The notes beneath the pieces are model-generated. The model was given only the letters and a program-made list of their open reading frames with translations. It was not told the origin of the DNA and did not search any database. Position numbers and translations under genes: made by a program. A stretch of DNA of 36,391 nucleotides, from positions 1-36,391 of IMG/VR virus record IMGVR_UViG_3300025276_000014; one strand, written 5' to 3'. Shown in pieces: positions 3,973-17,812 of the stretch (within the stretch, counting starts at the first letter, position 1; each line of letters begins with the position of its first letter). Source of the stretch: a virus.

Positions 3973-3976
3973 GATT

Positions 3977-4369: not shown

Positions 4370-4370
4370 G

Positions 4371-4547: not shown

Positions 4548-4574
4548 TTCATTAAAGAACTAAAACAAGACTAA
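4548..4574 (+). pseudogene. Duplicated gene tail (FIKELKQD-stop)
   Basis: Read in frame, these bases encode FIKELKQD and a stop. The gene ending at 4369 finishes FIKQLKQD and a stop, with nearly identical DNA. There is no start for this copy. It is best read as the remnant of a duplicated paralogue or a recombination scar left when the zinc-ribbon gene was acquired. Confidence 0.6.
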
Positions 4575-4575
4575 G

Positions 4576-4800
4576 ATGAGCGAAACGAATAAAACAAGGG
4601 TAATTAAGTACATAAAAACGTACGGAAGCATTACACCTATCCAAGCTATACAAGACTTGGGAAACACAAGGCTAGCAGCCTCAGTATTTGAACTTAAGCA
4701 GTTAGGTTGGAATATTGAAACAGAGATGTTGAAAGTCCAAAATAGATTTGGGAGAACCACTAATGTAGCAAAGTATTCTTTAAAAACTGTTGAGAATTAA
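4576..4800 (+). CDS. Helix-turn-helix protein (HTH_39-like)
   Basis: 74 residues. The arrangement KYIKTYGSITPIQAIQDLG, then TRLAASVFELKQLGW, followed by a short beta-like segment, matches small winged-helix proteins of the HTH_39 type common in phages. Likely a DNA-binding regulator or replication accessory. It starts one base after a duplicated gene tail. A TTG-N19-TATATTTG promoter overlaps its 3' end (4790-4819), separating it from the annealing-protein gene. Confidence 0.75.
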   Translation: MSETNKTRVIKYIKTYGSITPIQAIQDLGNTRLAASVFELKQLGWNIETEMLKVQNRFGRTTNVAKYSLKTVEN

Positions 4801-4819
4801 AATAAAAACACTATATTTG
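4790..4819 (+). promoter_or_regulatory. Bacteroidota-type promoter (TTG-N19-TATATTTG)
   Basis: TTG at 4790-4792 is followed after exactly 19 bases by TATATTTG (4812-4819), matching the Bacteroidota -33/-7 pattern (TTTG, TAnnTTTG). Transcription should start near 4825, giving a leader of about 20 bases before the ATG at 4845. Confidence 0.75.
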
Positions 4820-4844
4820 TATCACTAATTAATAACAGGGAACT

Positions 4845-5441
4845 ATGAGCAAAAAAACAAACAATTTGCTATTTTGGGATTCAGTACAAACTACTGACCC
4901 AAATTTTACAAAAGAAGTAGGCTTCGGTCGGAAGTTTACGAGTATCAACGCACAATATCAAGTTAGAGAACTTACACGAGCATTCGGTCGTATAGGAGAG
5001 GGATGGGGTATTAGTGAAGAGCAATTCTACAACCTTAACGGTATAGACGGTCTTATATGCTATCAAGCAATACTTTGGTATAAAGACGGAGAAGAAGTAC
5101 GCAACTTTGCTATAAACTCATCTATCGCATCTCACAACGGAAAAGGTAAGCTAGATGATGAGTGCTTTAAAAAGGTTTCCACCGATGCGCTTACAAAGGG
5201 ATTATCTAAGTTGGGATTCAACGCAGATATATTCTTGGGTATGTGGGATGATAACCGATACGTTAATCAAGTGAAGGAGTCTTTCAAGACTAAAACAAAA
5301 CTAACACCTACGAAGTTGGACGCAATGGTTCTCGCTATTAAAGGAGGTAAAGGGGATGTTGTGAAGTCTAAGATGGGTGATTACGAGATTACAAAGGAAC
5401 AATCCATAGCTCTTAAATCAGCTTTCGATGAAGCTAAGTAA
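4845..5441 (+). CDS. Sak3/Rad52-like ssDNA annealing protein
   Basis: 198 residues. The N-terminal pattern (W-x(2)-V-x-T-T-D-P, then GRKFTSI, FGRIGEGWGI and a YQAILWY strand), together with STDALTKGLSKLGFNADIFLG near residues 112-132, is what I recall of the Sak3 branch of phage single-strand annealing proteins related to Rad52. It would form rings on ssDNA and anneal complementary strands in phage recombination. This fits its place before a 5' exonuclease and an SSB-like gene. It has its own promoter. The family call is from memory; ERF or another Rad52-like branch is possible. Confidence 0.7.
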   Translation: MSKKTNNLLFWDSVQTTDPNFTKEVGFGRKFTSINAQYQVRELTRAFGRIGEGWGISEEQFYNLNGIDGLICYQAILWYKDGEEVRNFAINSSIASHNGKGKLDDECFKKVSTDALTKGLSKLGFNADIFLGMWDDNRYVNQVKESFKTKTKLTPTKLDAMVLAIKGGKGDVVKSKMGDYEITKEQSIALKSAFDEAK

Positions 5442-6174
5442 GGGAGATGTTAAGACGGCTCTGATAGACGCGGATATTATGCTCTATCGAGCCGCTTGGA
5501 AGCATGAAGGCGAGGATGTGGAAAGCGCTTACGAAACTATAGACGCTATGTTTGAGCATTTATTTTACGTAACTAAAGCAGATAGCTATATAGGGTTTCT
5601 AACGGGAAAAGGTAACTTCAGAAAAAAATTAGCTACAATAAAACCATACAAAGGTAATCGCAAAGATATTATCATGCCTGAGCATTTAGACAAGATAAGG
5701 GACTATCTAATAAATACTTGGAATTGTGAGAATGTAGAAGGGCTTGAGGCTGACGACGCTTTGGGTATTTGCCAAACGGAAATGGAAGACGCGACAATTA
5801 TTTGCAGTATAGATAAAGACTTGCTTCAAATAGAAGGGTATCATTACAATTGGAATAAGAACGAAATTTCGTTTGTAAGCGAATACGATGCTTGGCAAAA
5901 ACTTTACGAACAAACTTTATCAGGAGATTCTACTGACAATATAGTAGGGATACCTAGAATTGGGGAAAAGAAAGCTAAGAAGTTATTGGAAGAGTGTTTT
6001 TCTATTGAAGAAGCTAAGACTGTTTCTATATTTGCTTACGCAAAATACTACGAAGATGATAATCACTTAACTATGTTTCAAGAAAATCACGACTTAGTAA
6101 AGATATGCACGTCATCAGATGATAGTCGATTATCTGAGAAGTTTTTAATACCAACAATAAGTTATACTTTTTAA
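5428..6174 (+). CDS. FEN-type 5'-3' exonuclease
   Basis: 248 residues. The order of acidic clusters follows the PIN/FEN nuclease fold: IDAD (D14, D16), GLEADDALG (E107, D109, D110), CSIDKD (D129, D131) and SGDSTDN (D167, D170). The helix-3-turn-helix DNA-binding motif GIPRIGEKKAKKLL (about 174-187) follows. It resembles T5/T7-type flap exonucleases, which remove RNA primers and make the 3' overhangs used by an annealing protein. It overlaps the annealing-protein gene by 14 bases, consistent with an exonuclease-annealing pair. Confidence 0.9.
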   Translation: MKLSKGDVKTALIDADIMLYRAAWKHEGEDVESAYETIDAMFEHLFYVTKADSYIGFLTGKGNFRKKLATIKPYKGNRKDIIMPEHLDKIRDYLINTWNCENVEGLEADDALGICQTEMEDATIICSIDKDLLQIEGYHYNWNKNEISFVSEYDAWQKLYEQTLSGDSTDNIVGIPRIGEKKAKKLLEECFSIEEAKTVSIFAYAKYYEDDNHLTMFQENHDLVKICTSSDDSRLSEKFLIPTISYTF

Positions 6175-6175
6175 A

Positions 6176-6439
6176 ATGGATGATAAAAATTTTCAACAAA
6201 AGATGTTAAAGACTCAAGTAGAAACAAATGACTGTGTAGTTATCGCTATAGGGAATTACGTTAGCGACGAGTCCCCCGACATGGAAATCGAATTTGCTTT
6301 AAACGCAGATACTGAGGAGTTGTTCGGGTTGTTCAGCGAGTTATTTAAAAACAAAGCGGTTAGAGATGAAGCTAGAAGAGCTGTCCTTCAATCTGACTAT
6401 GGTAAAAATCAAGACAGCTTAGATAATCTATTTAATTAA
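6176..6439 (+). CDS. Small acidic protein, unknown
   Basis: 87 residues, acidic, with a beta-rich start (DCVVIAIGNYV) and a helical end. No motif was recognised. It sits one base after the exonuclease and six bases before the SSB-like gene, so it may be an accessory to DNA replication or recombination; this is inferred from position only. Confidence 0.65.
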   Translation: MDDKNFQQKMLKTQVETNDCVVIAIGNYVSDESPDMEIEFALNADTEELFGLFSELFKNKAVRDEARRAVLQSDYGKNQDSLDNLFN

Positions 6440-6445
6440 TCAACT

Positions 6446-6787
6446 ATGGAAAACAAAATAACAGGAACTCTAGTAAAAGTATTAGAGGCAGAAAAGGGAA
6501 TGACTAAAGCAGGTAAAGAATGGGAAAAGAAAGGTTTCGTTGTAAAGACGGTGGACAAATTCCCGAAAGAGGTTTGCTTTACTCTATTCGGAGAGAAGAC
6601 AACCCTAATAAATTCTCACAAGGTAGGAGATTCCGTAGGGGTACACTTCAATCTTTCTTCAAGAGAGTACAACGGTAAATACTATCACAATATAGACGCG
6701 TGGAAGATAGATGCGTCAGAAGGCAATGCCGAAAAGTTACCCGACAATGGTTACCAATCGGCTAAAAAGGATGACTTACCTTTCTAA
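6446..6787 (+). CDS. SSB-like OB-fold protein (DUF3127-type)
   Basis: 113 residues. The layout TGTLVKVLEAEKG, W-x-K-KGFVVKT, a central FTLFGEK strand and KVGDSVGVHFNL matches the DUF3127 OB-fold family typical of Bacteroidota. The protein ends in acidic DDLPF, the same kind of tip that bacterial SSB uses to recruit partner proteins. It likely coats ssDNA during phage replication and recombination, next to the exonuclease and annealing protein. A GC-rich hairpin follows it. Confidence 0.8.
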   Translation: MENKITGTLVKVLEAEKGMTKAGKEWEKKGFVVKTVDKFPKEVCFTLFGEKTTLINSHKVGDSVGVHFNLSSREYNGKYYHNIDAWKIDASEGNAEKLPDNGYQSAKKDDLPF

Positions 6788-6810
6788 ATAAAAAAAGTCT
6801 TTTAATCGTA

Positions 6811-6830
6811 GAGGGGGGTTTGCCCCCTTT
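6811..6830 (+). terminator. GC-rich hairpin after the SSB-like gene
   Basis: AGGGGG (6812-6817) pairs with CCCCCT (6823-6828) around GTTTG. Only three T residues follow, so termination may be partial and may lower expression of the downstream replication genes. Confidence 0.55.
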
Positions 6831-6855
6831 ACTTAACCCTTAAAGTGTTTAGATT

Positions 6856-7056
6856 ATGTCTAAAGAAAACAAAGTATCTCAATCAGAGATGAACAAGAGA
6901 ATCAAGCAAGTTACAATGGAAGCAGACTTTCGTTTTAAGTGCTTAGAGTTAGCAAGTCCTACGTCTAAAAAGATAGAGGACTTGTTAGAGAATGCTTCAC
7001 TAATATATAACTATGCTTTCCACATCCCTGCAAAGGTAGATGAGGATGCAAAGTAG
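6856..7056 (+). CDS. Small helical protein, unknown
   Basis: 66 residues, charged, probably all alpha-helical, no recognised family. Its 3' end overlaps the DnaA-like gene by 11-17 bases depending on that gene's start, suggesting coupled translation with the replication module. Confidence 0.65.
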   Translation: MSKENKVSQSEMNKRIKQVTMEADFRFKCLELASPTSKKIEDLLENASLIYNYAFHIPAKVDEDAK

Positions 7057-7447
7057 TGACGCTTTTTTAGAGGCAATTAGTTTTGTTTCCAACCTCACGG
7101 GAGTCCCTCAAATAGATATAATGAAGAAGAGTAGAGAGAGAAACTTAGTAGTATCTCGTCACTTCTTGAGGTATTATTTGAGACGTAATTTTGAAATGAC
7201 TTTCAAAGAGGTTGGGGACTTAACTAATGGTCATCACTCATCGGTAATACATTCAGTAAGATATGTAGAAGACTACTCTCTTTTTGACAAAACCTACAAG
7301 CTATACAAGGAAAGCATAGATGCTAGAGTTTTTGTTCAGAAGTTAACCCCTAGGGAGAAGATTACTAAAGTCTTAGTGAGTACAAGGAACAATGAATTTA
7401 AGTGTAACGCTATCCTAGAGATAGTACAAGAAATTATAAATGGATAA
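7040..7447 (+). CDS. Stand-alone DnaA domain IV-like protein
   Basis: 135 residues; the start could also be the ATG at 7046. Residues about 8-80 follow the DNA-binding domain of DnaA. They have the basic-loop and helix region (SRERNLVVSRHFLRYYLRR) and then NGHHSSVIHSVRYVE (63-77), which corresponds to the DnaA signature G-R-D-H-S/T-T-V-x-H-A. The AAA+ ATPase domain of DnaA is absent. The Asp of the signature is His here, so box specificity may differ. It could mark the phage origin or compete with host DnaA. It lies upstream of the replication protein and helicase genes. Confidence 0.8.
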   Translation: MRMQSSDAFLEAISFVSNLTGVPQIDIMKKSRERNLVVSRHFLRYYLRRNFEMTFKEVGDLTNGHHSSVIHSVRYVEDYSLFDKTYKLYKESIDARVFVQKLTPREKITKVLVSTRNNEFKCNAILEIVQEIING

Positions 7448-7697
7448 CCTAGAACAACAAAATAGAGGTCACTCTAGACCTGTGGTAGCTGTGTGTATTA
7501 ATCGTAGCGCTGAAGAATACAAGGAAGTTATTTGGTTTGGAAGCGTTAGAAGTTGCGCTAAATACCTAGAGAGAAATCCCGCTGCGGTTACTAAAGTTTG
7601 TCAAGGAGCGTGGAATACTTGCAACAAACATAAACTATACTACGAAGAGGATTACGAGAAAGAATTTGGTAAGATAATAAAAGACTGGGAGGACTAA
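7440..7697 (+). CDS. NUMOD1-like small DNA-binding protein
   Basis: 85 residues. The central pattern (RPVVAVCIN, a W-F-x-S-V-x-S-C-A-K-Y-L helix pair, KVCQGAWNTCNKHKLYY) resembles the NUMOD1 module usually fused to homing endonucleases, where it helps hold DNA. No nuclease domain is attached or adjacent. It overlaps the DnaA-like gene by eight bases. The family call is tentative. Confidence 0.55.
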   Translation: MDNLEQQNRGHSRPVVAVCINRSAEEYKEVIWFGSVRSCAKYLERNPAAVTKVCQGAWNTCNKHKLYYEEDYEKEFGKIIKDWED

Positions 7698-7700
7698 ACA

Positions 7701-8351
7701 ATGAGTAGAGGATTTAAGGGAATATGGATTCCAAAAGAGATTTGGGAGTCTAAAGATATATCTATGCAAGAGAAAGTTTTCTTGGCAGAGATTCATAGTT
7801 TAGATAATGAGAATGGTTGTATCGCTAGTAACGCTTACTTCGCTGAGTTCTTTGGGCTTAGCAAGAGTAGTGTTAGTAGGGTTGTTTCCTCTCTATCTAA
7901 AAAAGGTTTAATAGATGTTAAACTTTTATATAAACCCAATAAAGAAGTAGACAAGAGGGTTATTAGATGCAAGAAGTACGGAGATAAAGAGGTTAAGGTT
8001 ATAGAGAGAGAGATAGCTATACCTAAAGCACCATCTATGTCTGTGGGATTTGTTTCTGAAATCATTGACTACTTAAATGAAAAAGCAGATAAAAGGCTTA
8101 GGGTAGGGTTAGCTATAAAAAAGCTAGTCAATGCTAGGTGTAGCGAGGGGTATGTCTTAGACGATTTTAAGCACGTTATAGACGTTAAGTGCTCTCAATG
8201 GTTAGGAACGGACTTCGAAAAGTTTTTACGACCTTCAACGCTCTTTAGTGCGACTAAGTTTTGTGAGTATCATTCAGAAAAACTCAAGGCTTCTAAAGAA
8301 GTTAAGGCAGAAGAAATTACTAACTCTCAAATAGGTTTCTACAATGTATAG
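7701..8351 (+). CDS. Replication initiation protein (HTH plus Phg_2220_C-like domain)
   Basis: 216 residues. The N-terminal 1-75 contains a winged helix (ISMQEKVFLAEI, NAYFAEFFGLSKSSVSRVVSSLSKKGLI) like those at the start of phage O-type replication proteins. The C-terminal part, about 115-190, has EIIDYLNEKA, VNARCSEGYVLDDFKHVID, W-L-G-T-D and LRPSTLFS, the pattern of the Phg_2220_C domain. It probably binds the phage origin and loads the helicase encoded next, with which it overlaps by eight bases. Confidence 0.8.
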   Translation: MSRGFKGIWIPKEIWESKDISMQEKVFLAEIHSLDNENGCIASNAYFAEFFGLSKSSVSRVVSSLSKKGLIDVKLLYKPNKEVDKRVIRCKKYGDKEVKVIEREIAIPKAPSMSVGFVSEIIDYLNEKADKRLRVGLAIKKLVNARCSEGYVLDDFKHVIDVKCSQWLGTDFEKFLRPSTLFSATKFCEYHSEKLKASKEVKAEEITNSQIGFYNV

Positions 8352-9282
8352 AATAAGCAATAAAGACGATATAAAAAGATACGCAGGGAACGTATTCAGA
8401 AACGGATTACCTAAAGGAGTATCTACGGGGATACCAAACCTAGACCCTCACTATAAATATAGAAAGGGAGAGTTGGATGTTATCATGGGGTTGGCTAATA
8501 TAGGTAAAACTACGACGATGTTCTACCTTATGCTTAATGCTTCGATGCGTTACGGTTGGAAGTGGCTTTGCTACTGTCCTGAGAATGAACCTGTAGGCGA
8601 TATGATTTCAGATATAGCAGAGATGTTTATAGGTAAAAGTGCCGATAAAGACAGAGAAGATAGGATGACTGCAACTGAATTTAGTAATGCAATCGATTGG
8701 GTTCTAGACCACTTCACTATAATATCATTCAAAGAACAACCGTCAGCCACTCAAGTGTTGGAAGCTTTTGAAGAGCAGATGGAAGTACTAAAATACGATG
8801 GGTGCTTAATAGACCCTCTAAACGACTTACGGGTTGAGAATGGATTTAGTAAGTACGACTATTACTACAACATGCTATCTAGCATTAGGAGATTTAAGCA
8901 AAAGCATAACGTAAAATTTATACTAACGACTCACGCAGGAACTGCCGCAGCTAGAAAGAAAGACGATGCAGGTAGAGTGCCAGCACCCTCAATGTATGAT
9001 GTGGAGTTCGGTGGGATGTTTGCCAACAGAACAGATAATTTTATAGTTATACACAGGCATTTAAACAGCGAACAATGGGATGTTACTGAATTGCACGTAA
9101 GGAAAATAAAGTTTCAAAAGCTAGTAGGTCTACCGACTCAAGAGGATAGTCCTGTTTATTTGAAGTTTTCCCCAAAAAGTTGTAGATTTACATACTTAAA
9201 CGCATCAGCAGGAGGTAATTTCTTAGACCCATTGAGTTCCGTTAAAGTAAAAGACAAACAAGAAGATGAATTAAACTTTTAA
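8344..9282 (+). CDS. DnaB-type replicative helicase ATPase
   Basis: 312 residues, about the length of a DnaB C-terminal RecA-like domain without the N-terminal helical domain. Walker A is GLANIGKTT (49-57, with K55 and T56); Walker B is around YDGCLIDPL (151-159). ILTTHAGT (193-200) fits the DnaB sensor motif. The initiator gene immediately upstream overlaps it, as in phage initiator/helicase pairs. It would unwind the fork as a hexamer. The short form could instead resemble Sak4-type ATPases, but this phage already has an annealing protein. Confidence 0.85.
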   Translation: MYRISNKDDIKRYAGNVFRNGLPKGVSTGIPNLDPHYKYRKGELDVIMGLANIGKTTTMFYLMLNASMRYGWKWLCYCPENEPVGDMISDIAEMFIGKSADKDREDRMTATEFSNAIDWVLDHFTIISFKEQPSATQVLEAFEEQMEVLKYDGCLIDPLNDLRVENGFSKYDYYYNMLSSIRRFKQKHNVKFILTTHAGTAAARKKDDAGRVPAPSMYDVEFGGMFANRTDNFIVIHRHLNSEQWDVTELHVRKIKFQKLVGLPTQEDSPVYLKFSPKSCRFTYLNASAGGNFLDPLSSVKVKDKQEDELNF

Positions 9283-9284
9283 CC

Positions 9285-9488
9285 ATGGGAAGACTAAAGC
9301 AATTTTTAATACACGAACAAATGCGTTTATCGGGAGATTGGCGAGAACAAAATCATTATGAATACTTAGCTTGGAGAAAAAGCTTAGAAGAACAAGAACA
9401 ATATGGAGAACAAGAATTATCACACGGACAAGGAGATAAGAGCGAAGATAGACAAGATGTTGAAGCAGAACGCTATCAATGTAGCTAA
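9285..9488 (+). CDS. Small hydrophilic protein, unknown
   Basis: 67 residues, Glu/Gln-rich, beginning two bases after the helicase stop. No family was recognised. The last 86 bases overlap the next frame (9403-9609), so either both are translated or this frame is shorter in function than it appears. The tight spacing behind the helicase supports translation. Confidence 0.5.
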   Translation: MGRLKQFLIHEQMRLSGDWREQNHYEYLAWRKSLEEQEQYGEQELSHGQGDKSEDRQDVEAERYQCS

Positions 9489-9609
9489 TTCAGGAACGGG
9501 AAGTAGACTAGATATTGGAGACGAAAACCACGTACAACAGGCTTGGCTCGCTCTTCAGTTTGAGATAAGAAGACTTGACCCTGTATTTTACAACATAATA
9601 AAAAACTAA
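9403..9609 (+). CDS. Small protein, unknown
   Basis: 68 residues with a helical N-terminus (DKEIRAKIDKML) and an aromatic C-terminal part (QQAWLALQFEIRRLDPVFYNI). It looks more protein-like than the frame it overlaps. The bases 9533-9548 carry a 16-mer also found at 3533-3548 in a different reading frame. Function unknown. Confidence 0.6.
   Translation: MENKNYHTDKEIRAKIDKMLKQNAINVANSGTGSRLDIGDENHVQQAWLALQFEIRRLDPVFYNIIKN
9533..9548 (+). repeat. 16-bp repeat GAAAACCACGTACAAC, copy 2
   Basis: Identical to 3533-3548. Here it is read as codons for ENHVQQ, whereas copy 1 is read for KTTYN. Confidence 0.75.
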
Positions 9610-9610
9610 A

Positions 9611-9763
9611 ATGATTAAGAAAGACGAAAAAACAGAAGCAGAGAAGCACGCAGAAGATGTGGCAAGAAATACTTGGGACTCTTGGATTGTAGATTTAACA
9701 GACTCAGACCAACCTGAATCTTGCAGTATAGATGACGATGATTGTGAAGCCTGCGGAAGCTAA
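9611..9763 (+). CDS. Small acidic protein with C-terminal cysteines
   Basis: 50 residues. It starts one base after the preceding stop. It is acidic, with an Asp run and three cysteines near the end (CSIDDDDCEACGS). No family was recognised. Support comes from spacing and an uninterrupted frame in a dense operon. Confidence 0.5.
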   Translation: MIKKDEKTEAEKHAEDVARNTWDSWIVDLTDSDQPESCSIDDDDCEACGS

Positions 9764-9791
9764 CTAACTTAAAAATAAAATACGAAGAACT

Positions 9792-9875
9792 ATGATACAG
9801 AACGTAATAATTTTAATCGTAACTATATTGTGTTTAATTACAGTGGTAGAACCCTTTATGAACCGCAATAAATAA
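9792..9875 (+). CDS. 27-residue single-pass membrane peptide
   Basis: The frame encodes one hydrophobic helix (residues about 4-20, VIILIVTILCLITVV) with a short polar tail. It has an AACTATG start context like several neighbours and ends six bases before the next ATG. It may sit in the inner membrane; a role in host-membrane modification is only a guess. Confidence 0.45.
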   Translation: MIQNVIILIVTILCLITVVEPFMNRNK

Positions 9876-9881
9876 AGCAAA

Positions 9882-10211
9882 ATGGATATAGCAATACAAG
9901 CAATGAAGATTCTAAGGGAGTCTCAAGAATCAAGAAAGGAATCTTCTTTTATGACTCAGTACTCAAACTTATTGTTGGAGATTCATAAAATGGAGGATGA
10001 GTTAAATACAGTTAAATCAAAGCTATCAAATCAGAATTTTGAATTAAAAAGAGACAGGGTTAATGGTTTGAAGTTAGCTTTAATAAGCTTCAGCGAGTGC
10101 TACTTCTTGATGTGTAGCTACAAAGAGCAATCTACAAATTGGAAGTACAAGTACTTGGAAAAAGAAATGGAATACATTAACTTTGTGAATAAAGGACTGA
10201 AGGATGAGTAA
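9882..10211 (+). CDS. Coiled-coil protein, unknown
   Basis: 109 residues, largely helical and charged. A likely coiled coil runs through about residues 25-60 (LLLEIHKMEDELNTVKSKL). No catalytic motif is visible. The 3' end overlaps the MazG-like gene by eight bases. Confidence 0.65.
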   Translation: MDIAIQAMKILRESQESRKESSFMTQYSNLLLEIHKMEDELNTVKSKLSNQNFELKRDRVNGLKLALISFSECYFLMCSYKEQSTNWKYKYLEKEMEYINFVNKGLKDE

Positions 10212-10479
10212 GATTGAAAGCAGTGTTGTATCTAAGATTTTAAAGCGCTCTAATCAAGGCTTTGAGAAGTATGGAACAACTATGGAGAGGAGTGACTTAA
10301 GTCGCTTAGAATGGCTTATACACGCTCAAGAAGAATCAATGGACTTAGCAGTCTACTTAGAAAAACTTATACATGAGGAACAAAAGAAACAGCCCTGTAA
10401 GAACTGCCGCTGTGAAGGCGGGGTTTCGCAGTGGACTAGAACATCGAGTTTGGAAGAATTTGATCCAAAGAAAGGTTAA
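10204..10479 (+). CDS. MazG-like / all-alpha NTP-PPase-like protein
   Basis: 91 residues. The region 10-60 (RSNQGFEKYGTTMERSDLSR, then EWLIHAQEESMDLAVYLEKL) matches small phage MazG-like proteins, where the EE-x(2)-D acidic helix holds Mg2+ and cleaves (d)NTPs to the monophosphate. The first of the two usual acidic helices is weak, so activity is uncertain. The last 107 bases overlap the endonuclease gene in another frame, and the tail beyond residue 62 looks unconstrained. Confidence 0.6.
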   Translation: MSKIESSVVSKILKRSNQGFEKYGTTMERSDLSRLEWLIHAQEESMDLAVYLEKLIHEEQKKQPCKNCRCEGGVSQWTRTSSLEEFDPKKG

Positions 10480-10783
10480 AGGCGCAGCCTACGAGCCTAT
10501 TAAGATTTCATACGTTATCCCCCTGAGTAAGCACTCTTACACCCCCGATATAGTATTAGCCAATGGTATTATATTGGAGGTTAAGGGTCGCTTAATGAAA
10601 GCGGATAGGGATAAACACGTATTAATCAAAGAGCAATACCCTGATATAGACCTTAGATTTGTATTTCAAAATGCAAACAATAAGATTAGAAAGGGAAGTC
10701 AAACCACTTACGCTCAATGGTGTGAAAAAAATGACATAAAATGGTGCGAGAAATTAGTCCCCGATAGTTGGCTTAAAGAGTAA
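10373..10783 (+). CDS. T7 endonuclease I-like Holliday junction resolvase
   Basis: 136 residues that align along most of their length with phage T7 gp3. GFRSGLEHRV carries the catalytic Glu (E23), YTPD the Asp (D59), and LEVKG the Glu-x-Lys (E69, K71), with spacing nearly the same as in T7 (E20, D55, E65, K67). C-terminal motifs KGSQTTY, WCEK and KLVPDSWLKE also match. It resolves branched DNA and recombination intermediates before packaging. It begins inside the MazG-like gene. Confidence 0.92.
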   Translation: MRNKRNSPVRTAAVKAGFRSGLEHRVWKNLIQRKVKGAAYEPIKISYVIPLSKHSYTPDIVLANGIILEVKGRLMKADRDKHVLIKEQYPDIDLRFVFQNANNKIRKGSQTTYAQWCEKNDIKWCEKLVPDSWLKE

Positions 10784-10797
10784 ATGTGTTATATTTG
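10768..10797 (+). promoter_or_regulatory. Bacteroidota-type promoter (TTG-N19-TATATTTG)
   Basis: TTG at 10768-10770 lies inside the end of the endonuclease gene, followed after 19 bases by TATATTTG (10790-10797). No coding gene begins before the terminator at 10844-10877, so it appears to drive a short untranslated RNA. Confidence 0.7.
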
Positions 10798-10802
10798 ATT
10801 AT

Positions 10803-10877
10803 TCCCTGTTTATCTCTGCATTGTTTGTTTGGTTAGAGACTTGGTAGCCCTTGCATTTGCGGGGGTTGCTTTTTTTT
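10803..10877 (+). ncRNA. Candidate phage small RNA (~75 nt) carrying an anti-leader segment
   Basis: A promoter (10768-10797) and a strong terminator (10844-10877) enclose about 75 bases with no start codon of a known gene. The RNA would carry TTGTTTGTTTGGTTAG (10821-10836). The reverse complement of this segment matches CTAACCAAACA (475-485) and AACCAAACAAAC (2124-2135), which lie just upstream of the start codons at 495 and 2137. The sense copy at 3238-3253 is identical. The 5' end is predicted from the promoter. Confidence 0.5.
10844..10877 (+). terminator. Rho-independent terminator
   Basis: GTAGCCC (10844-10850) pairs with GGGTTGC (10863-10869), with two G-U pairs, and eight T residues follow (10870-10877). 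It closes the early operon and the candidate small RNA. Its loop contains the TTTG of the next promoter. Confidence 0.75.
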
Positions 10878-10887
10878 ACTATATTTG
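10856..10887 (+). promoter_or_regulatory. Promoter of the phosphoesterase gene (TTTG-N20-TATATTTG), near-leaderless
   Basis: TTTG (10856-10859), 20 bases, then TATATTTG (10880-10887). The ATG of the next gene is only four bases further on (10892), so the transcript should start at or very near the start codon. This fixes the start at 10892 and excludes an in-frame upstream start at 10829. Confidence 0.75.
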
Positions 10888-10891
10888 TTTC

Positions 10892-11623
10892 ATGGAAAAA
10901 CAATATCGACCTCGATTATCTGAATTTGAATGGAGTTTAGTTCGAAAAGCTAGAGAGTCAGAATCCCCATCAACAGGAAACGTCTTAGTTATAGGCGATA
11001 TTCACGAACCTTTTTGTATAGACGGATACCTAGAGCATTGTAAGGCTCAGATGGTTAAGTATAGATGCTCTGAAGTGGTATTTATAGGAGATATAATAGA
11101 CTCTCATTACTCAAGCTTCCACAGAGCAGACCCTGACGGTTACGGTGCGGGAGACGAGCTAGAAAGAGCTATAGATAAAATACAAGCATGGTATAACGCT
11201 TTCCCAATAGCAAAAGTTTGTATAGGAAATCACGACGCAATTGTTAGACGTAAAGCTTTTGATAGCGGAGTTTCTAAGGCTTGGATTCGAGATTTCGATG
11301 AGGTGTTAGGAGTTGAGGGTTGGGACTTTAAAGAAGACCACAAAATAGGAAATGTTCTTTATGTTCACGGAACAGGAACTTCAGGTAGAAATGCTGCAGC
11401 AGGAAAGTCTTTAGAATTTAATTGCCCCGTAGTTCAAGGACATATTCATACAGAATCTTCCGTTATTTATAATGGAGCTAATTGGGGAATGCAAGTAGGG
11501 TGCGGAGTTGATAGAGATTCCTACGCTATGGCTTACGCCAAGCATTTTGCTAAGTCTTACAAGTTATCTTGCGGAGTTGTACTCAACAATGGAACTCTAC
11601 CAATCGTAATACCCTTTATTTAG
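10892..11623 (+). CDS. Calcineurin-like metallophosphoesterase
   Basis: 243 residues from the ATG at 10892. It has the full set of two-metal phosphoesterase motifs: GDIH (D36, H38), GDIID (D67), GNHD (N113, H114), VHG (H159) and GHIHT (H184, H186). It should hydrolyse a phosphomonoester or diester; related phage enzymes act on nucleotides or nucleic-acid ends, but the substrate here cannot be read from sequence. It has its own promoter and ends eight bases into the converging gene on the other strand. Confidence 0.85.
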   Translation: MEKQYRPRLSEFEWSLVRKARESESPSTGNVLVIGDIHEPFCIDGYLEHCKAQMVKYRCSEVVFIGDIIDSHYSSFHRADPDGYGAGDELERAIDKIQAWYNAFPIAKVCIGNHDAIVRRKAFDSGVSKAWIRDFDEVLGVEGWDFKEDHKIGNVLYVHGTGTSGRNAAAGKSLEFNCPVVQGHIHTESSVIYNGANWGMQVGCGVDRDSYAMAYAKHFAKSYKLSCGVVLNNGTLPIVIPFI

Positions 11624-11900
11624 AATCAGGAGCATATACTGTAGCTGCCGCTAAAGCGAACATGACTAAGTGTTGCCAAGTAACCTCGCCTGCAACTTCT
11701 GTTTGATGAACAGCCGCGATAGCTATAACACCACCTATAGTTCTTTTACTAGACCACTTACCGTTTTTATCCTTAAACATTTTAGGAATAATAAACGACA
11801 TAATCTTAGCTCCTGTAGTAATTAAAGGATTAATCATAGGGTCTTTGATGTCTTCAAGCTCTTCGTTTTTAACCTTTCTATTTTTCCTTCTTAGTCCCAT
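11616..11900 (-). CDS. Small membrane-associated protein of the lysis region
   Basis: 94 residues. A basic N-terminus is followed by PMINPLITTGAKIMSFIIPKMF, a WSSKRTIGG turn and hydrophobic stretches near residues 57-65 and 77-90 (WQHLVMFALAAATVYA). The arrangement resembles small membrane proteins near phage lysis genes. It may be holin-like or a holin partner. It is the last gene of the late arm and overlaps the 3' end of the converging phosphoesterase gene. Confidence 0.6.
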   Translation of the reverse strand: MGLRRKNRKVKNEELEDIKDPMINPLITTGAKIMSFIIPKMFKDKNGKWSSKRTIGGVIAIAAVHQTEVAGEVTWQHLVMFALAAATVYAPDSK

Positions 11901-12057
11901 AATTAGGAATTAAAAATTCAAATATTTTATCTACCTTACCGAAGATAGCATCATCTTTTACGTTAGGTGTAAGTCTAACGAAAACTTTTGCGGCAGCCAT
12001 TAATCCAACTAATACAGCGATAATGTCTGAGCCGTTCTGTGAAATGTATTCAATCAT
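11878..12057 (-). CDS. Holin-like single-pass membrane peptide
   Basis: 59 residues: a short polar N-terminus, one hydrophobic helix (about 10-25, DIIAVLVGLMAAAKVFV), then RLTPNVKDDAIFGKVDKIFEFL. This helix followed by an LTP...DD stretch is common in small phage membrane proteins beside lysis genes. It overlaps the next late gene by 23 bases. It could be a holin or a structural membrane peptide. Confidence 0.6.
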   Translation of the reverse strand: MIEYISQNGSDIIAVLVGLMAAAKVFVRLTPNVKDDAIFGKVDKIFEFLIPNYGTKKEK

Positions 12058-12063
12058 GTTTTC

Positions 12064-12465
12064 TTAAATTATATTTATGTAAAATGAATCGGGAAGTATA
12101 GACAACAATGAATCCAAGGTATCTCTACTAGAGGTAACATCCAACTCCCCATCTTTGTTTATATCAGAATAAGACTTTCCAACAGCAATGCAACCTCTTA
12201 ATTGAGAATGATAATTTGCTGCATGAACAAGGATGTAATCCCTATCTTCAACATCTTTAATTATAAAATGCTCGCCATGTTTTTCTGAGAACCTTACAAT
12301 AGCAAGGTACTCTCCTCTTGGAATGCAAGATACATTAGTTTTATTATCTTTCCAAGAAAGCTCTAAGGTTTTGCAGGAAAAAGACTCCTTTATTTCGTCG
12401 TGAATAGTTAACGCTCCGAGTGTTTCTTTCCCTGTATCTACTAATCTATTTAAAACTACTTTCAT
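12064..12465 (-). CDS. DUF5675-family protein, candidate lysis enzyme
   Basis: 133 residues. Motifs LGALTI, CKTLEL, SCIPRGEY, DYILVHAANYHSQLRGCIAVG fit the DUF5675 family. The end of this pattern, His-x(n)-GC, recalls the active site of L,D-transpeptidase-like cell wall enzymes, and the gene is followed by two membrane peptides. It is therefore my best candidate for a peptidoglycan-active enzyme, as no classical endolysin is visible. The biochemical role of the family is not established to my knowledge. Confidence 0.65.
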   Translation of the reverse strand: MKVVLNRLVDTGKETLGALTIHDEIKESFSCKTLELSWKDNKTNVSCIPRGEYLAIVRFSEKHGEHFIIKDVEDRDYILVHAANYHSQLRGCIAVGKSYSDINKDGELDVTSSRDTLDSLLSILPDSFYINII

Positions 12466-12544
12466 CTCTGTTTGTTAGGGCTTCTCCCATTTCACTAATT
12501 AAACTAATCATTGCTTGAGTCCAATTTTTAAAAAAACTTTTCAT
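12446..12544 (-). CDS. Possible 32-residue peptide
   Basis: The ATG at 12544 overlaps the stop of the upstream late gene (TGATG), and the frame runs 32 codons into the DUF5675 gene. The peptide has an amphipathic helix (FKNWTQAMISLISEMGEAL). Coupling of start and stop supports it, but its length is marginal. Confidence 0.35.
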   Translation of the reverse strand: MKSFFKNWTQAMISLISEMGEALTNRDESSFK

Positions 12545-12792
12545 CACTTAGCCCTGTTTACCTTTTTAGCAACTTTCTTACTGTAAGAAGCTTTTTGCTT
12601 TCCTTTAGCTGTTGCTTTCTTTTTTTTCTTGTTCTCTGAAGCCTTTTGAGCAGGTGTAAGGGACTCTCTAACGCTCTTTGGTAAATATCTACCTCTTTTA
12701 CTTTTAGGCTTCTTCTTGTCCTTATCTGAGATGTAGTCCCATTCTTGCTTAGTCCATTTTTTAAGACTTTGTTGAGGTTTTTTTGTAGCCAT
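12544..12792 (-). CDS. DUF5872-like basic phage protein
   Basis: 82 residues, very Lys-rich. The pattern KKWTKQEWDYIS, RGRYLPKSVRESLTPAQKAS and a basic Ala/Lys tail matches the DUF5872-type protein seen across many phages, including cyanophages. The function is unknown; a DNA-binding or virion-internal role is plausible from charge. It starts on the base that ends the upstream stop codon. Confidence 0.75.
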   Translation of the reverse strand: MATKKPQQSLKKWTKQEWDYISDKDKKKPKSKRGRYLPKSVRESLTPAQKASENKKKKKATAKGKQKASYSKKVAKKVNRAK

Positions 12793-12977
12793 TATTTGTA
12801 TCCCCCTCCTGCTTTTTTATATTCGTTAGCTAATAGTTGAGCTTTTCTTGCAGACCATTGACCTGCCCCACCACCTTTACTTCCTGCTTTTATCTTATTA
12901 AATAAACGCTTTCTCATAGTTGGCTTGGTATAATTACCTGAACTATTAACTGTGCTCTTTTTCTTCTTTACAGCCAT
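12792..12977 (-). CDS. Conserved small basic phage protein
   Basis: 61 residues, Lys/Gly-rich. The segment YTKPTMRKRLFNKIKAGSKG, then GQWSARKAQLLANEYKKAGGGY, is one I recognise as widely conserved in marine and Bacteroidota phages, often next to the DUF5872 protein. Function unknown. It overlaps its neighbour by one base. Confidence 0.75.
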   Translation of the reverse strand: MAVKKKKSTVNSSGNYTKPTMRKRLFNKIKAGSKGGGAGQWSARKAQLLANEYKKAGGGYK

Positions 12978-12980
12978 AAC

Positions 12981-13268
12981 TTACCACTTTACTTTATCAG
13001 CCCAATAGGCAGCAGACATCTTTCCTTTAGCAATATTCTTTCCGTGGCGAGCTTTAAATGATTTACGTTTAGCTTTCATCTTATCAGACTCTCCTTTCTT
13101 TGGTTTTCCCGCAGTGCTTGCGCCTTGCTCTCCAAATCGAATAGTCTTGATTTTATCTCCATCTTTAGCAACCACCACGTGTGATTTCTTAGGGTGGCTA
13201 GGGGTTCGCTTAGGTTTGTTGAAACCTGAGACTCCTGCCTTATCTAGTCTTGAATCTTTCTTAGCCAT
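12981..13268 (-). CDS. Conserved small basic phage protein (SRLxxAGVSGFNKPKRTP type)
   Basis: 95 residues. The start (SRLDKAGVSGFNKPKRTP, HPKKSHVVVAK, IKTIRFGEQGAS) and the end (KSFKARHGKNIAKGKMSAAYWADKVKW) are almost invariant in many tailed phages of very different hosts. It usually travels with late genes, and I suspect a virion or DNA-associated role, but the function is not known to me. It sits with two other small basic proteins as a set of three. Confidence 0.8.
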   Translation of the reverse strand: MAKKDSRLDKAGVSGFNKPKRTPSHPKKSHVVVAKDGDKIKTIRFGEQGASTAGKPKKGESDKMKAKRKSFKARHGKNIAKGKMSAAYWADKVKW

Positions 13269-13269
13269 A

Positions 13270-14034
13270 TTAACCTGTAAATCCTGATGAGTATTTTGAA
13301 TACTGATAACCTAAATTAATCCTAAGATTTTCAGTTGCACCTCCGCCGTGACCTGTATTTCTTATAAATGCGAATATCTTCTTTCCTTGAGGTATTACTA
13401 CGCTAGGAGCGGCTGAACCTACGAAGCCGTATGAAGTGCCAGTTGCCGCTACGTTTATTGTAGGGACTGTGCATAAAAAAACGGGACTTACAAGGTTGCT
13501 CTGTGAAGCGTCGTCATTGTTGTAGTAAAAAATTACTATATCTACAGCTCCTGTAGCGCCTGTGTTAATAACTGAGCCAAAAACTTTAAAATTCCTCATA
13601 TCAAAAGGAACGTCAACTCCACAGTTACTATACAACCCAAACATTGCTGCGGGAGTTGTGCTATTTATTGCTGACTGAGTATTGAATTGACTCCAACTAT
13701 TATTCGACCAACCCGCTCCTTGATGCCCAAAATACCACCGATTAGCAGCTCCTGTAGATATAAAAAAAGAAGTGTGCATTAGTATAGCAAAAGTCTTATC
13801 GTCAGATAAAACAGAAACGGATTTAACTAAAGCGTGTAAAAAAGCTCTTAAGTTTTCTAGTTTAACACCACCCTTTACGTTAGTCTTAAAGTTTTCTTCT
13901 ATAAAAAAAAGTAAGTTATCTCTATCAACAAGCTCGTTTGCGGTAACGGCAGCAGAATCATTACTTCTTGACTGTGAGTTAAACTTTAAAGCGTAACTAG
14001 CAGCTTGGGCTGTATAATCAGGAGTATTAGGCAT
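13270..14034 (-). CDS. Putative virion surface or fibre protein
   Basis: 254 residues, Ser/Ala/Asn-rich with low Lys. Residues about 1-75 look helical; the rest is predicted beta-rich with Gly and aromatic residues (NRWYFGHQGAGWSNNSWSQF; GYQYSKYSSGFTG at the end), like the C-terminal domains of receptor-binding or decoration proteins. Its place after the holin-like peptide in the late operon fits a host-recognition or head-decoration role. No close family was recognised. Confidence 0.6.
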   Translation of the reverse strand: MPNTPDYTAQAASYALKFNSQSRSNDSAAVTANELVDRDNLLFFIEENFKTNVKGGVKLENLRAFLHALVKSVSVLSDDKTFAILMHTSFFISTGAANRWYFGHQGAGWSNNSWSQFNTQSAINSTTPAAMFGLYSNCGVDVPFDMRNFKVFGSVINTGATGAVDIVIFYYNNDDASQSNLVSPVFLCTVPTINVAATGTSYGFVGSAAPSVVIPQGKKIFAFIRNTGHGGGATENLRINLGYQYSKYSSGFTG

Positions 14035-14035
14035 G

Positions 14036-14215
14036 TTATTCTTTCCCTTTAATTAGTAATTGATATATTCTAACAGCAGTATATGCAACAGCTAAAACAA
14101 GAGATAACATTCGTAATCCTTGCTCAACTTCAGCCATTGTAGAAAGCATTACTGCCCCCCCATTTACTGCGGTAATTTCTATAGAGTCTTTTATTTTAGT
14201 TATAGTATCGTTCAT
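14036..14215 (-). CDS. Putative holin (single-pass membrane peptide)
   Basis: 59 residues. The N-terminal half is polar, then MLSLVLAVAYTAVRIYQLLI (about 37-56) forms one transmembrane helix with a basic end (KGKE), which fits small holin-type proteins. It overlaps the connector gene by 20 bases and ends one base before the next late gene. It could be a holin or a pinholin-like peptide; this cannot be settled from sequence. Confidence 0.55.
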   Translation of the reverse strand: MNDTITKIKDSIEITAVNGGAVMLSTMAEVEQGLRMLSLVLAVAYTAVRIYQLLIKGKE

Positions 14216-14786
14216 CCTTCTTATTTATGGAGGTGTATCTATTCATTTTACTTCCGTAAGCTAAAATCCCTCCTAGCCTTACTACGTTATCTCCATTTAT
14301 GTGCATGTCATTTTGAGAAGACTCATACTCAGGATAAACACCTACGTTTTCGGTGTCATCTAACCACTCCATCATATCTTTTAAGAGTATCTCAGCCTTT
14401 CTAAAAGTATCATCTTTAAGGACAGCTAATTCAGAAGAATCAGCAGCGTCACTCCAATCGTCATCATTAGTAACTATACCTGAAGACGTTGTATTGTATT
14501 GCATGTCATTTAAGACTTCATACTTAACGTAAAAAGATAGACAAGGCAATATGTAGTTATTTAAAAGAGTTATCTCGACAGCTTGTAAACTTCCTGCGTG
14601 ATGCTTTTTTCTTAACTCTCCCCAAAAATAATCTCCTAAGTGAGGTTTAAGGTGCGTTAATTCAGCTATAAGAACTATGTTGTCATCAATTATAGAGGAG
14701 TCCATATTGACGTTAGTCATAGCCTTTAAAACCACTTCATTAGCGGTTATAAGATTGTTGTATTGTCTATAATCTGTTTTAGCCAT
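14196..14786 (-). CDS. Putative head-tail connector (neck) protein
   Basis: 196 residues, mostly helical. The segments IVLIAELTHLKPHLGDYFWGEL, ILPCLSFYVKYEVLND and DDTFRKAEILLKDMMEWL resemble the helical head-completion proteins found next to portals in Bacteroidota phages. It follows the portal with an eight-base overlap, so a neck role is supported by position. Confidence 0.65.
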   Translation of the reverse strand: MAKTDYRQYNNLITANEVVLKAMTNVNMDSSIIDDNIVLIAELTHLKPHLGDYFWGELRKKHHAGSLQAVEITLLNNYILPCLSFYVKYEVLNDMQYNTTSSGIVTNDDDWSDAADSSELAVLKDDTFRKAEILLKDMMEWLDDTENVGVYPEYESSQNDMHINGDNVVRLGGILAYGSKMNRYTSINKKDERYYN

Positions 14787-16062
14787 TATCCTTACCTTTT
14801 AAGTCTTCTAAATAAATATCTTCTAAGTCTGGTCTCTCCTCTAATCCTATCAATGCCCGAAGCTCGTTTACGTCAGCTATTTTAGTAATATCAATATCTG
14901 CAGCAAAACCTATAGGGGATTCGAATTGAACCTCTAAAGATGAAGCGTCAGTTTTTAAGACTTTACCTAAAGCGTCACGCATAGGCTTGAATACTTGCTC
15001 TATAGTGTCTTGAATAACTGTCCTCATAACCAAGTCGTAAGAAATTCTAATCTCACTACCTGTGTTATTCATTTTACCACTAGAAACAATACCTGAAAGA
15101 GCGGGTTGCCATCTGTGAGCTGTAACTATATTATTACGGGTAAGCTCTTGGTATTCCATAAAGCTACCGTCTTTGTCATCTTTAAGTATCTGAACATTAG
15201 CACCTCCACCTGAGCCGCCTCCGTCTTTAACTAAGAATAATATCTTTCCGTTATTACCTTCTCCCGTTAATTTGTCTTGAGCTAAAGAAATTAATTCCTC
15301 TGCCTCATCGTCGCTCATAGAGCCGTCTATCTCAACGATAGCTGAAGGCATAAAGCCATTCTCAAATTTTGAACGATTGTATTTTTGTATAAGATAATCT
15401 ATCTCTATAGAGCCACTTTCAGCCGCAGCTATATAATCAGGAATACCATATCTTTGGAATCCACTTTCGTAATCCTTAAACATAAGAACAGACCGCCCAT
15501 TCTTAAAGTTAGGGAACATAGGAATCTTACGAACCTCTTTATCCTTAACGTCATAGTGCGCCCAATCAGGATTAACATAAACAGAGTCCATGTTTTTACC
15601 TACACGAACCATTGTTGAGTCAACGTGATACATATTGCATCCACCCTCGTATTCAACAAATTCAATGTAGGAGTTTCCAAATGTGTAGAAATCATCTACA
15701 ACTAACCTAAAAAGGTTTCTTAAAGACTGCCCTGAAGGGTTAACCTCCTTTAAATAGTCGTTTAATTTTGCGTTTATGGTAGTTATTTTACTACCCGCTG
15801 TGTAAGTTGCTTTTTGAGAAAGAATAGCTCTGTGTGTGCTTGACTTTCTTTTTAACTCAGCAAGATATTGAGGGAACAAATTATCATCCCCAAATTTATA
15901 GAACTCTTTTGAGGTTATATTGTGTTGTCTCTCTAATATGTTAGGCATAGGAGCTAAGTTTACTATATCAAACTTAACTTTACCCGTTGCTTTTTGCCTT
16001 ATAGTTTTAGATGTCGCACTAGCTACGAATCTTCCGTTGGAATCTCTTTTTCTTTCAGCCAA
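14779..16062 (-). CDS. Portal protein
   Basis: About 427 residues from a TTG at 16062 (MAERKRDSNGR start). The in-frame TTG at 16089 lies inside the TATATTTG promoter box, so the later start is preferred. The region DDFYTFGNSYIEFV, YHVDSTMVRV, GIPDYIAAAES...YNRSKFENGFMPSAIV, YQELTRN and ISSGKMNNTGSEI matches phage portal proteins of the PBSX-like type, the dodecameric ring through which DNA enters the capsid. The Arg/Lys-rich start with NGRF could help assembly. It is followed by the connector gene. Confidence 0.88.
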   Translation of the reverse strand: MAERKRDSNGRFVASATSKTIRQKATGKVKFDIVNLAPMPNILERQHNITSKEFYKFGDDNLFPQYLAELKRKSSTHRAILSQKATYTAGSKITTINAKLNDYLKEVNPSGQSLRNLFRLVVDDFYTFGNSYIEFVEYEGGCNMYHVDSTMVRVGKNMDSVYVNPDWAHYDVKDKEVRKIPMFPNFKNGRSVLMFKDYESGFQRYGIPDYIAAAESGSIEIDYLIQKYNRSKFENGFMPSAIVEIDGSMSDDEAEELISLAQDKLTGEGNNGKILFLVKDGGGSGGGANVQILKDDKDGSFMEYQELTRNNIVTAHRWQPALSGIVSSGKMNNTGSEIRISYDLVMRTVIQDTIEQVFKPMRDALGKVLKTDASSLEVQFESPIGFAADIDITKIADVNELRALIGLEERPDLEDIYLEDLKGKDNG

Positions 16063-16086
16063 AATTTTACAAGTATAATGATTACA

Positions 16087-16094
16087 CAAATATA
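16087..16094 (-). promoter_or_regulatory. -7 promoter box TATATTTG upstream of the portal gene
   Basis: CAAATATA on the plus strand reads TATATTTG on the minus strand. No clear TTG is 19-20 bases upstream. It immediately follows a terminator, so it would restart transcription for the portal-to-lysis genes, starting near 16081. Confidence 0.55.
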
Positions 16095-16133
16095 AGAAAA
16101 TTAAGGGGGTACTTCCGTAGTTTCGCCCCTTAA
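16092..16133 (-). terminator. Rho-independent terminator after the 175-residue structural gene
   Basis: The minus strand forms TTAAGGGG/CCCCTTAA (16133-16126 with 16108-16101), followed by TTTTCTTAT. It lies between the stop at 16145 and the portal start. Confidence 0.75.
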
Positions 16134-16144
16134 TCTAAATATTA

Positions 16145-16672
16145 TTACGCTTTAACTAAAGGTAATCTACCTTGAATTGCAGTAAAAGTTAACGTAACGC
16201 CGTTAGCGTCTACTAAAGCTGTTCCTGTGTCCGCTTCAATCCCCGTTAAAACTAAAGGATAAAGAGTTGTAGTTCCTGTAGAACCATCTCCTGAACCAAG
16301 CTCAGGGTCATATCCAACTAAATACGTAACATCGCTGTACATTTGAACTAATGCGTTTAGAGGTGTTCCTCTCATATTCTCCAAAGCAACCAAAGTTGTT
16401 AGCTTCATATTCGGAACGTACCCTTCTATTGTTACTGTATGCAGCATTAATCCCTTGTCTTGAGACGAAGAAATCTTCATGTTTGCAGTTTCTTTATCGA
16501 AAGATATTACTACTGCAGTACCTCCTTGGACTATACTCGAATCTGCTACAGTTCCGTTGGCTGCTCCAGTGTCAAATAAAGTTGCAGAAGAATACTCTGC
16601 TAGGCTTAATGATTTAATTCCACCTTTTACAAAGTGGTCAGTATTCACTACTGTTATTGCTGATAATGCCAT
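16145..16672 (-). CDS. Virion structural protein (tail tube or decoration candidate)
   Basis: 175 residues, beta-rich, with few charged residues. It is flanked on both sides by terminators. Motifs include FVKGGIKSLSLAEYS, ENMRGTPLNALVQMYSDVTYLVGYDPELGSG and YPLVLTGIEADTGTALVDANGVT. It lies directly after the major capsid gene and its isolation between terminators suggests a separately controlled, abundant protein. No other tail tube candidate was found, so a tube role is plausible, with head decoration as the alternative. Confidence 0.6.
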   Translation of the reverse strand: MALSAITVVNTDHFVKGGIKSLSLAEYSSATLFDTGAANGTVADSSIVQGGTAVVISFDKETANMKISSSQDKGLMLHTVTIEGYVPNMKLTTLVALENMRGTPLNALVQMYSDVTYLVGYDPELGSGDGSTGTTTLYPLVLTGIEADTGTALVDANGVTLTFTAIQGRLPLVKA

Positions 16673-16694
16673 TTTATTTTTTTTTAAAAGTTAT

Positions 16695-16730
16695 AAAAAA
16701 AGGGAGCGGAGCAGAACCCCAACTCCCTTT
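16695..16730 (-). terminator. Rho-independent terminator after the major capsid gene
   Basis: On the minus strand AAAGGGAG (16730-16723) pairs with CTCCCTTT (16706-16699), with a T7 run (16701-16695). It may limit read-through so that capsid mRNA is more abundant than downstream messages. Confidence 0.85.
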
Positions 16731-16753
16731 AATATTAATCATTATACTGTATA

Positions 16754-17812
16754 CTATTGGTGTAACGCAGTAACTGCTAGTTTAGCATCCATTAATTGCG
16801 TACCGCACTTGTATCCAAATCGCATTCTGTATGCTTTTTGGTCTTGAGAATACCAATTTTCAACTGAAGCATTGTCAAAGTCAGTACCTACAGCAATAGC
16901 TCCGTCAGCAACCATAACAACACGACCTACTGAATTAGCATCTGTAGCTCCATCAATTAAAGCGTGGTCACTAGCAATGTGTGAATCCCAATCTCTACGA
17001 ACAACAATAGGAATACCATCCCAAGTTAAGTTTGGAGTTCCATCTTGCAATACCATGAAAGACTCAGAAATACCTTGCGCTCTTAAGTACTTTCTATAAG
17101 CGTTAGCTATAACACCCGAAACAAACATTGTTTTAGGTAGCTCTAACAACTCAGGAGTTGCAGCGTTATAAACGGATTCAAAGATACTAATAACCTCAGC
17201 GCCTGTATAAACACCTGCTGCGGCTAATGCACAACCTGTTGATGGGCTAGCGGAACTTATATCTATAACTAGTTTTTGACCACTAGCTAATGAGTCTTTA
17301 AGAACTTCAAAGATTCCGTCATAAACATCGTAATCAAGGTTTCTACCTGTTGCATCTGCATCACTTCCTGCTGCGGTAGAGTTTACGTTTGCAAACCATA
17401 ACTGTCTGTTGAAATCACGCTTTACAGCTTGAAGCATAACGCCTGCCATAATTTCTTTGATTACAGTTCCGTCAATATTATCTTTAGCTGTACCTAATTT
17501 TAAAGCTTGAGATTTTACTGTAGCAAAAAATACGTTTGCTCTTTGCTCCATTTCAGCTTCAAGATTTCCAACCACTAAAGTTCTTTGAGTGTAAGCAGAA
17601 GTCTCAGCGTCTGCAGCAAATGCAGCACCTGCATTAGGAACTGTAATATACTCAGCAGACTGAAAGTGGTCTAGCTTCATGCTTGATTTTACGTCAGGAT
17701 AAAGCGTAAATTTGTTTAAGTATTCTTGCCCTAAAAATAAAGGCGATAAGAAATACTTCGCCACCTCTTCTTGGTGGTATCCTGAAATGCTTGTACTAAT
17801 AGCGTTAGCCAT
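16754..17812 (-). CDS. Major capsid protein
   Basis: 352 residues. The layout (short helical N-terminus, VPNAGAAFAADAETSAYTQRTL, DGTVIKEIMAGVMLQAVKRDFNRQLW, central beta/Gly/Ala region, IPIVVRRDWDSHIASDH, SQDQKAYRMRFGYKCGTQLMDAKLAVTAL at the end) fits phage capsid proteins of the HK97 fold. It follows the protease-scaffold gene by 22 bases and precedes a strong terminator. There is no long N-terminal scaffolding domain, matching a separate scaffold in the protease gene. Confidence 0.85.
   Translation of the reverse strand: MANAISTSISGYHQEEVAKYFLSPLFLGQEYLNKFTLYPDVKSSMKLDHFQSAEYITVPNAGAAFAADAETSAYTQRTLVVGNLEAEMEQRANVFFATVKSQALKLGTAKDNIDGTVIKEIMAGVMLQAVKRDFNRQLWFANVNSTAAGSDADATGRNLDYDVYDGIFEVLKDSLASGQKLVIDISSASPSTGCALAAAGVYTGAEVISIFESVYNAATPELLELPKTMFVSGVIANAYRKYLRAQGISESFMVLQDGTPNLTWDGIPIVVRRDWDSHIASDHALIDGATDANSVGRVVMVADGAIAVGTDFDNASVENWYSQDQKAYRMRFGYKCGTQLMDAKLAVTALHQ

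Follow-up and report, generated by a model that had tools for sequence, protein, structure and literature searches.

The viral record of 36,391 bases analysed here in full (the window) very likely carries a real regulatory RNA gene. It occupies the gap that separates a T7-type endonuclease I gene (10373-10783) from a metallophosphoesterase gene (10892-11623), where the rightward arm nears its end. We propose, with a probability of about 0.55, that it encodes an independently transcribed phage small RNA (sRNA) of ~77 nt, which would act in trans by pairing of its single-stranded 5' end. The predicted unit, its conservation and its independence from the downstream gene are established by sequence and comparison, and we describe it as a phage sRNA gene of ordinary architecture that belongs to a new sequence family. 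A compact, strongly conserved sRNA gene, for which a promoter, a seed and a terminator are predicted, is shared by a group of 32 viral contigs and offers a direct, testable entry to RNA-based control in Bacteroidota phages, in a phylum that initiates translation without Shine-Dalgarno pairing.

The predicted transcription unit and its genomic setting

The record is probably complete, because the same 127-base repeat occurs at both ends (1-127 = 36265-36391). Genes up to about 11.6 kb point rightward and encode recombination and replication proteins; beyond, most genes point leftward, including those for the head maturation protease and the terminase. A Bacteroidota host, probably a flavobacterial one, is suggested by promoters of the form TA..TTTG (72 found versus 45 expected) and by leaders rich in A. 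In named genomes, a protein profile search detected a single relative, a distant Flavobacteriaceae MAG contig sharing 32% identity, which supports this host weakly. The features of the locus are as follows.

10768-10797, + strand: sRNA promoter, with a -33 TTG at 10768-10770 (inside the 3' end of the endonuclease gene), followed after 19 nt by a -7 box TATATTTG at 10790-10797
10801-10877, + strand: predicted sRNA of ~77 nt, with 20 distinct homologous sequences plus L113, folding better than shuffled sequences
10801-10821, + strand: 5' domain AUUCCCUGUUUAUCUCUGCAU, almost without variation and probably the functional (seed) region, from alignment, predicted accessibility and comparison with neutral sites
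10802-10810 and 10813-10821, + strand: motifs UUCCCUGUU and UCUCUGCAU, respectively, inside the 5' domain
10821-10841, + strand: variable hairpin 1, including a proposed 'anti-leader' segment TTGTTTGTTTGGTTAG (10821-10836); stem kept, sequence changed in most lineages
10843-10877, + strand: intrinsic terminator with a 12-bp stem, an ATTT loop and T8
10856-10887, + strand: second promoter, for the phosphoesterase gene, with TTTG in the terminator loop (10856-10859), 20 nt and TATATTTG at 10880-10887, kept in relatives

The original prediction had pointed to a promoter, a gene-free stretch and a hairpin with T8, and all these elements were found where it had placed them, the gene-free interval extending from 10784 to 10891. 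The promoter matches the Flavobacterium consensus TAHHTTTG, and its TA[TC][AC]TTT[GA] box is retained in relatives. Since the TAHHTTTG box occupies positions -12 to -5 in Flavobacterium johnsoniae (PMC6847099), the sRNA should start at 10801/10802; it should end in the T run 10870-10877. RNA polymerase of the host, carrying the main sigma factor of Bacteroidota, would initiate at this site and stop at the intrinsic terminator ending at 10877. The terminator hairpin (GGTAGCCCTTGC-ATTT-GCGGGGGTTGCT, 10843-10870, with T8 at 10870-10877) ranks best of the 12 terminators found in positions 1-20000, and the predicted sRNA fold was beaten by only 1-3 of 200 shuffles.

The promoter of the phosphoesterase gene, which the original prediction had missed, contains a second copy of TATATTTG and is embedded in the sRNA terminator; its mRNA is predicted to be leaderless, with the A of the ATG at 10892 as +1. 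The spacing of this promoter differs by a few bases in some relatives. The sRNA unit is intact in L012, L013 and L019, where the downstream gene is replaced: another gene (10531-11670 in L012, likewise in L013 and L019) sits precisely at the junction of the sRNA unit with the phosphoesterase gene, and in L012 the phosphoesterase gene is found about 1.2 kb further on. The sRNA unit is independent of the gene that follows it. To judge by its sequence, the inserted gene of L012 resembles DNA C5-cytosine methyltransferases.

Conservation and folding of the sRNA

An endonuclease search gave 57 loci, and the whole sRNA unit follows the endonuclease gene in the 21 nearest ones (L002-L022). With the addition of a DNA pattern search and a phosphoesterase profile search, the unit was found at the same place after the T7-type endonuclease gene in at least 31 IMG/VR contigs besides the window, one of which (L106) is cut off at its 5' end. 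L122, outside this count, is a diverged case that retains UUUCCUGUUUU and a terminator. The unit was absent from distant relatives with an endonuclease at ~57% or less, and a looser viral pattern added only chance matches. No real match to the unit was found in 50,697 cultured phage records, its pattern had no match in GTDB genomes (hosts or prophages), and none of the 4227 Rfam families matched at or above the gathering cut-off, the best Bacteroides model, BTnc201, reaching 18.3 bits versus 105.

Conservation within the unit peaks at 10801-10821, a stretch lying 5' of the segment stressed by the original prediction. Outside the closest relatives, fourfold-degenerate sites are 42-59% identical, whereas the 5' domain is almost invariant: between the window and L021, all its 21 nucleotides agree, against 45% identity at the fourfold-degenerate sites of the two flanking genes. 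The domain is likewise identical in L016 (plus one inserted base), L069 and L014, fourfold sites in these lineages and L021 being 45-57% identical, and UCUCUGCAU is identical in every clear homologue. Owing to this conservation, the unit goes beyond chance. Insertions or deletions of one base between CCCUG and UCUCUGCAU fit an RNA and speak against a conserved peptide. A small ORF inside the sRNA (frame TTG ATT ATT CCC ... TAG), present in the window, was rejected, as it is broken by single-base indels in relatives. A host-type promoter and an intrinsic terminator of its own, together with conservation as a non-coding RNA that does not depend on the neighbouring gene, are what would be expected of an independent phage sRNA.

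Compensatory changes were observed at two pairs of the terminator stem. The sequence of hairpin 1 turns over while most lineages keep the stem, with GUGUUU/AAACAC in L068, GUGUUU/AGACAC in L072 and L014, GCACU/AGUGC in L021 and L022, and GUGUUU/AAACAU in L012. This hairpin is weak in the window (GUUU/AGAC), and in L015 and L074 it is unformed, with an alternative pairing instead. AUUCCCU at the sRNA 5' end, which is near-invariant, was unpaired in all 13 folded sequences, so that folding predicts an open 5' end with a conserved and accessible seed. The UCUCU core is predicted to be open in several lineages; in the window, L016 and L069, AGAGA offers it a pairing partner.

Candidate targets of the 5' domain and of the loop

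A single-stranded, near-invariant 5' domain followed by a variable hairpin and a terminator stem is how trans-acting, base-pairing sRNAs are usually built. Most probably, the 5' end UUCCCUGUUU, perhaps together with UCUCUG, would act during infection by pairing with one mRNA or a few, around their translation starts. We scored the 5' domain of each lineage against the orthologous leaders, using column-permuted domains as the null. Taken singly, genes 4845 and 9285 gave p = 0.010 and p = 0.007, and the best score had a family-wise p of 0.23 over all genes. The best phage candidate, which is not significant after correction, is the leader of gene 4845, a gene of the recombination/replication arm with the PHROG annotation 'exonuclease'.

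4812-4844, + strand: candidate target, the predicted 21-nt leader of gene 4845 (4824-4844), with the promoter TATATTTG of this gene (4812-4819)

In this leader, AACAGGGAA (4834-4842, positions -11 to -3 of gene 4845) is complementary to UUCCCUGUU of the sRNA (10802-10810), and pairing would cover these positions and hinder initiation. L016 allows 10 bp of this pairing, the window and L007 each 9 bp, and L021 8 bp; in L072 and L075 the pairing shifts to AUCUCUG:CAGAGAU, and in L076 and L012 it is weak. A host mRNA would be an equally possible target. The non-significant target enrichment, the shifted or weak pairing with gene 4845 in some lineages and the pairable UCUCU in the lineage of the window all count against a 5' seed. 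The coding start of ORF 6856, complementary to UGUUUAUCUCUG, was considered and rejected: the complementary sequence tracks the codons for a conserved SE[IM]NK peptide, and it has decayed in L076, L072 and L020.

The original prediction had assigned the regulatory role to another part of the RNA, proposing that TTGTTTGTTTGGTTAG pairs with the early leaders 495 and 2137, among others, and thereby shuts off or protects those mRNAs. The matches themselves are real (CTAACCAAACA at 475-485, AACCAAACAAAC at 2124-2135, CTAACCAA before 35738 and AAACAAAC before 31812). In the window, the loop segment pairs with three leaders at -15.9 to -16.8 kcal/mol, energies that most shuffles do not attain, and its matches are in modest excess over composition-matched genomic segments (p = 0.02-0.08) for a segment that had been picked post hoc, for its leader matches. 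The full sRNA showed no leader-pairing excess (p = 0.7). In 11 lineages, loops paired with leaders better than shuffled loops did, and they beat composition-matched genomic segments in about 8 of the 11 (mean energy, p from 0.008 to 0.084; 0.11 for L016), these lineages not being independent since their loops are homologous. Gene 2137 was the best-scoring leader over the lineages. Swapping loops between lineages gave no better fit to their own leaders (double-centred diagonal of -0.10 kcal/mol).

The segment lies in the fast-evolving loop region of hairpin 1 and is replaced by GCACUUUAAAUAGUGC in L021 and L022. Among relatives keeping the promoter and the terminator, these two lose the complementarity, the outcome that the original prediction had itself named as refuting it, and L011 is at chance. 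Pairing with leaders is also at chance in L021 (p = 0.56), where the energies for the two main targets, 495 and 2137, are -4.4 and -3.9 kcal/mol, versus -15.9 and -16.2 in the window. The phage small RNA with an anti-leader segment is thus upheld as a predicted sRNA gene with its own promoter and terminator, identified in 31 further contigs, and not as a conserved anti-leader function. Leaders enriched in A are general in Bacteroidota (PMC6847099), and we read the loop-leader excess as a generic match of a U/G-rich loop with A/C-rich leaders rather than as a selected target site; a weak general bias towards leader pairing may remain. Despite the real matches, the slight pairing advantage in about 8 of 11 lineages and the good rank of gene 2137, we therefore hold specific regulation through the loop to be unlikely, given its variability and its loss in L021 and L022, the chance-level pairing in L021 and L011, the lack of fit to the own genome and of excess for the full RNA, and the post hoc choice of the segment. 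It is still somewhat less probable that the 5' end (UUCCCUG) and the loop (UUUGGUUA) jointly recognise A-rich, Shine-Dalgarno-less Bacteroidota starts, as a broad anti-leader RNA. If so, the phage would tune the translation of many mRNAs at once, its own or those of the host; the weak generic loop-leader excess in about 8 of 11 lineages is compatible with this.

The proposed anti-leader segment also recurs at 3237-3253 on the + strand, as an exact 17-nt copy, ATTGTTTGTTTGGTTAG, that the original prediction had missed. This copy was rejected as a paired control element: it is a U/G-rich run before another hairpin and drifts in L007, L066 and L021. The region 3237-3300, between a peptidase gene (2137-3234) and ORF 3336, is itself a conserved structured element composed of a hairpin, GGGG-GUAUGCUCAGUAAUGGGUAC-ACCCC, followed by TATATAACAAAGTTTATAACT. 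Its inner stem shows a compensating change between L007 (CUCA/UGAG) and L066 (CUUA/UAAG), and it has no Rfam match.

Other explanations and known systems

The 5' domain could also be bound by a protein of the host or the phage, such as a host RNA-binding protein or RNA polymerase, the RNA serving as a decoy or scaffold without base pairing. A near-invariant sequence that finds no significant pairing partner in the phage would fit this explanation, as would the likeness of the two motifs CCCUGUUUA and UCUCUGCAU; yet there is no candidate protein, and a terminal, single-stranded, C-rich end also looks like a pairing seed, so that we consider it rather doubtful. It is more doubtful still that the locus makes no functional RNA, and that the conserved sequence is a DNA site of the promoter (an operator or initially transcribed sequence) placed before an ordinary early-operon terminator overlapping the next promoter. 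A terminator and a promoter are needed here anyway, and ATTCCC lies at a nearly fixed distance past the -7 box. However, UCUCUGCAU stays identical even though its distance from the start varies by several bases, the next element is a hairpin whose sequence changes in a compensatory way, and a promoter firing into a terminator 40 nt further on would have no other product. The position of the unit directly 5' of 10892 would fit a leader or attenuator acting in cis on the phosphoesterase gene, or a replication-priming transcript, and in many sequences CUCUGCA is able to pair with the terminator's UGCRGGG. We regard this as very unlikely, as the phosphoesterase gene is served by a promoter of its own and gives way to another gene in three lineages, and the antiterminator pairing CUCUGCA:UGCRGGG is broken in the alignment of L016-L020. 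An RNA anti-CRISPR, mimicking a repeat, was also among the readings considered.

The preferred reading, a trans-acting sRNA with a 5' seed, has parallels in known systems. FopS/GibS of Bacteroides thetaiotaomicron are also Bacteroidota sRNAs with a single-stranded 5' stretch carrying a conserved seed, followed by an intrinsic terminator (PMC11697453, PMC7366714). They form a chromosomal multicopy family binding RbpB, whereas the phage sRNA is single-copy, phage-borne and has an extra hairpin; the likeness is one of layout, and family membership is not claimed. PreS (lambda), VpdS (VP882), sar (P22) and OOP are likewise phage-made small RNAs with their own promoter and terminator, and some phage-encoded sRNAs act in trans on the start regions of phage or host mRNAs (PMC12197685). 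These four come from temperate phages of Gammaproteobacteria, several are Hfq-dependent or cis-antisense, and none matches the present sRNA in sequence. Our literature search found no small RNA from any Bacteroidota phage. Firmicutes sRNAs with a C-rich (UCCC) motif, such as RsaE, expose an unpaired UCCC-type motif complementary to purine-rich ribosome-binding regions, while Bacteroidota mostly lack Shine-Dalgarno sites. UUCCCUG, facing AACAGGGAA here, resembles this type by motif alone and no homology is claimed.

Elsewhere in the window, convincing genes are few or lacking over about 1 kb around the joined ends of the circular contig (35000-35700 and 1-380). Two consecutive small genes carry at their ends the copies of a 43-nt direct repeat (4332-4374 and 4537-4579; 91% identity), which spans the next start codon. 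At 386-475, ARAGORN calls a 90-nt tRNA-Ala(CGC), where the matching place in the L012 contig holds an ordinary tRNA-Glu(TTC); the copy in the window looks like a tRNA-Glu with an 18-nt D-loop insertion and a broken anticodon stem.
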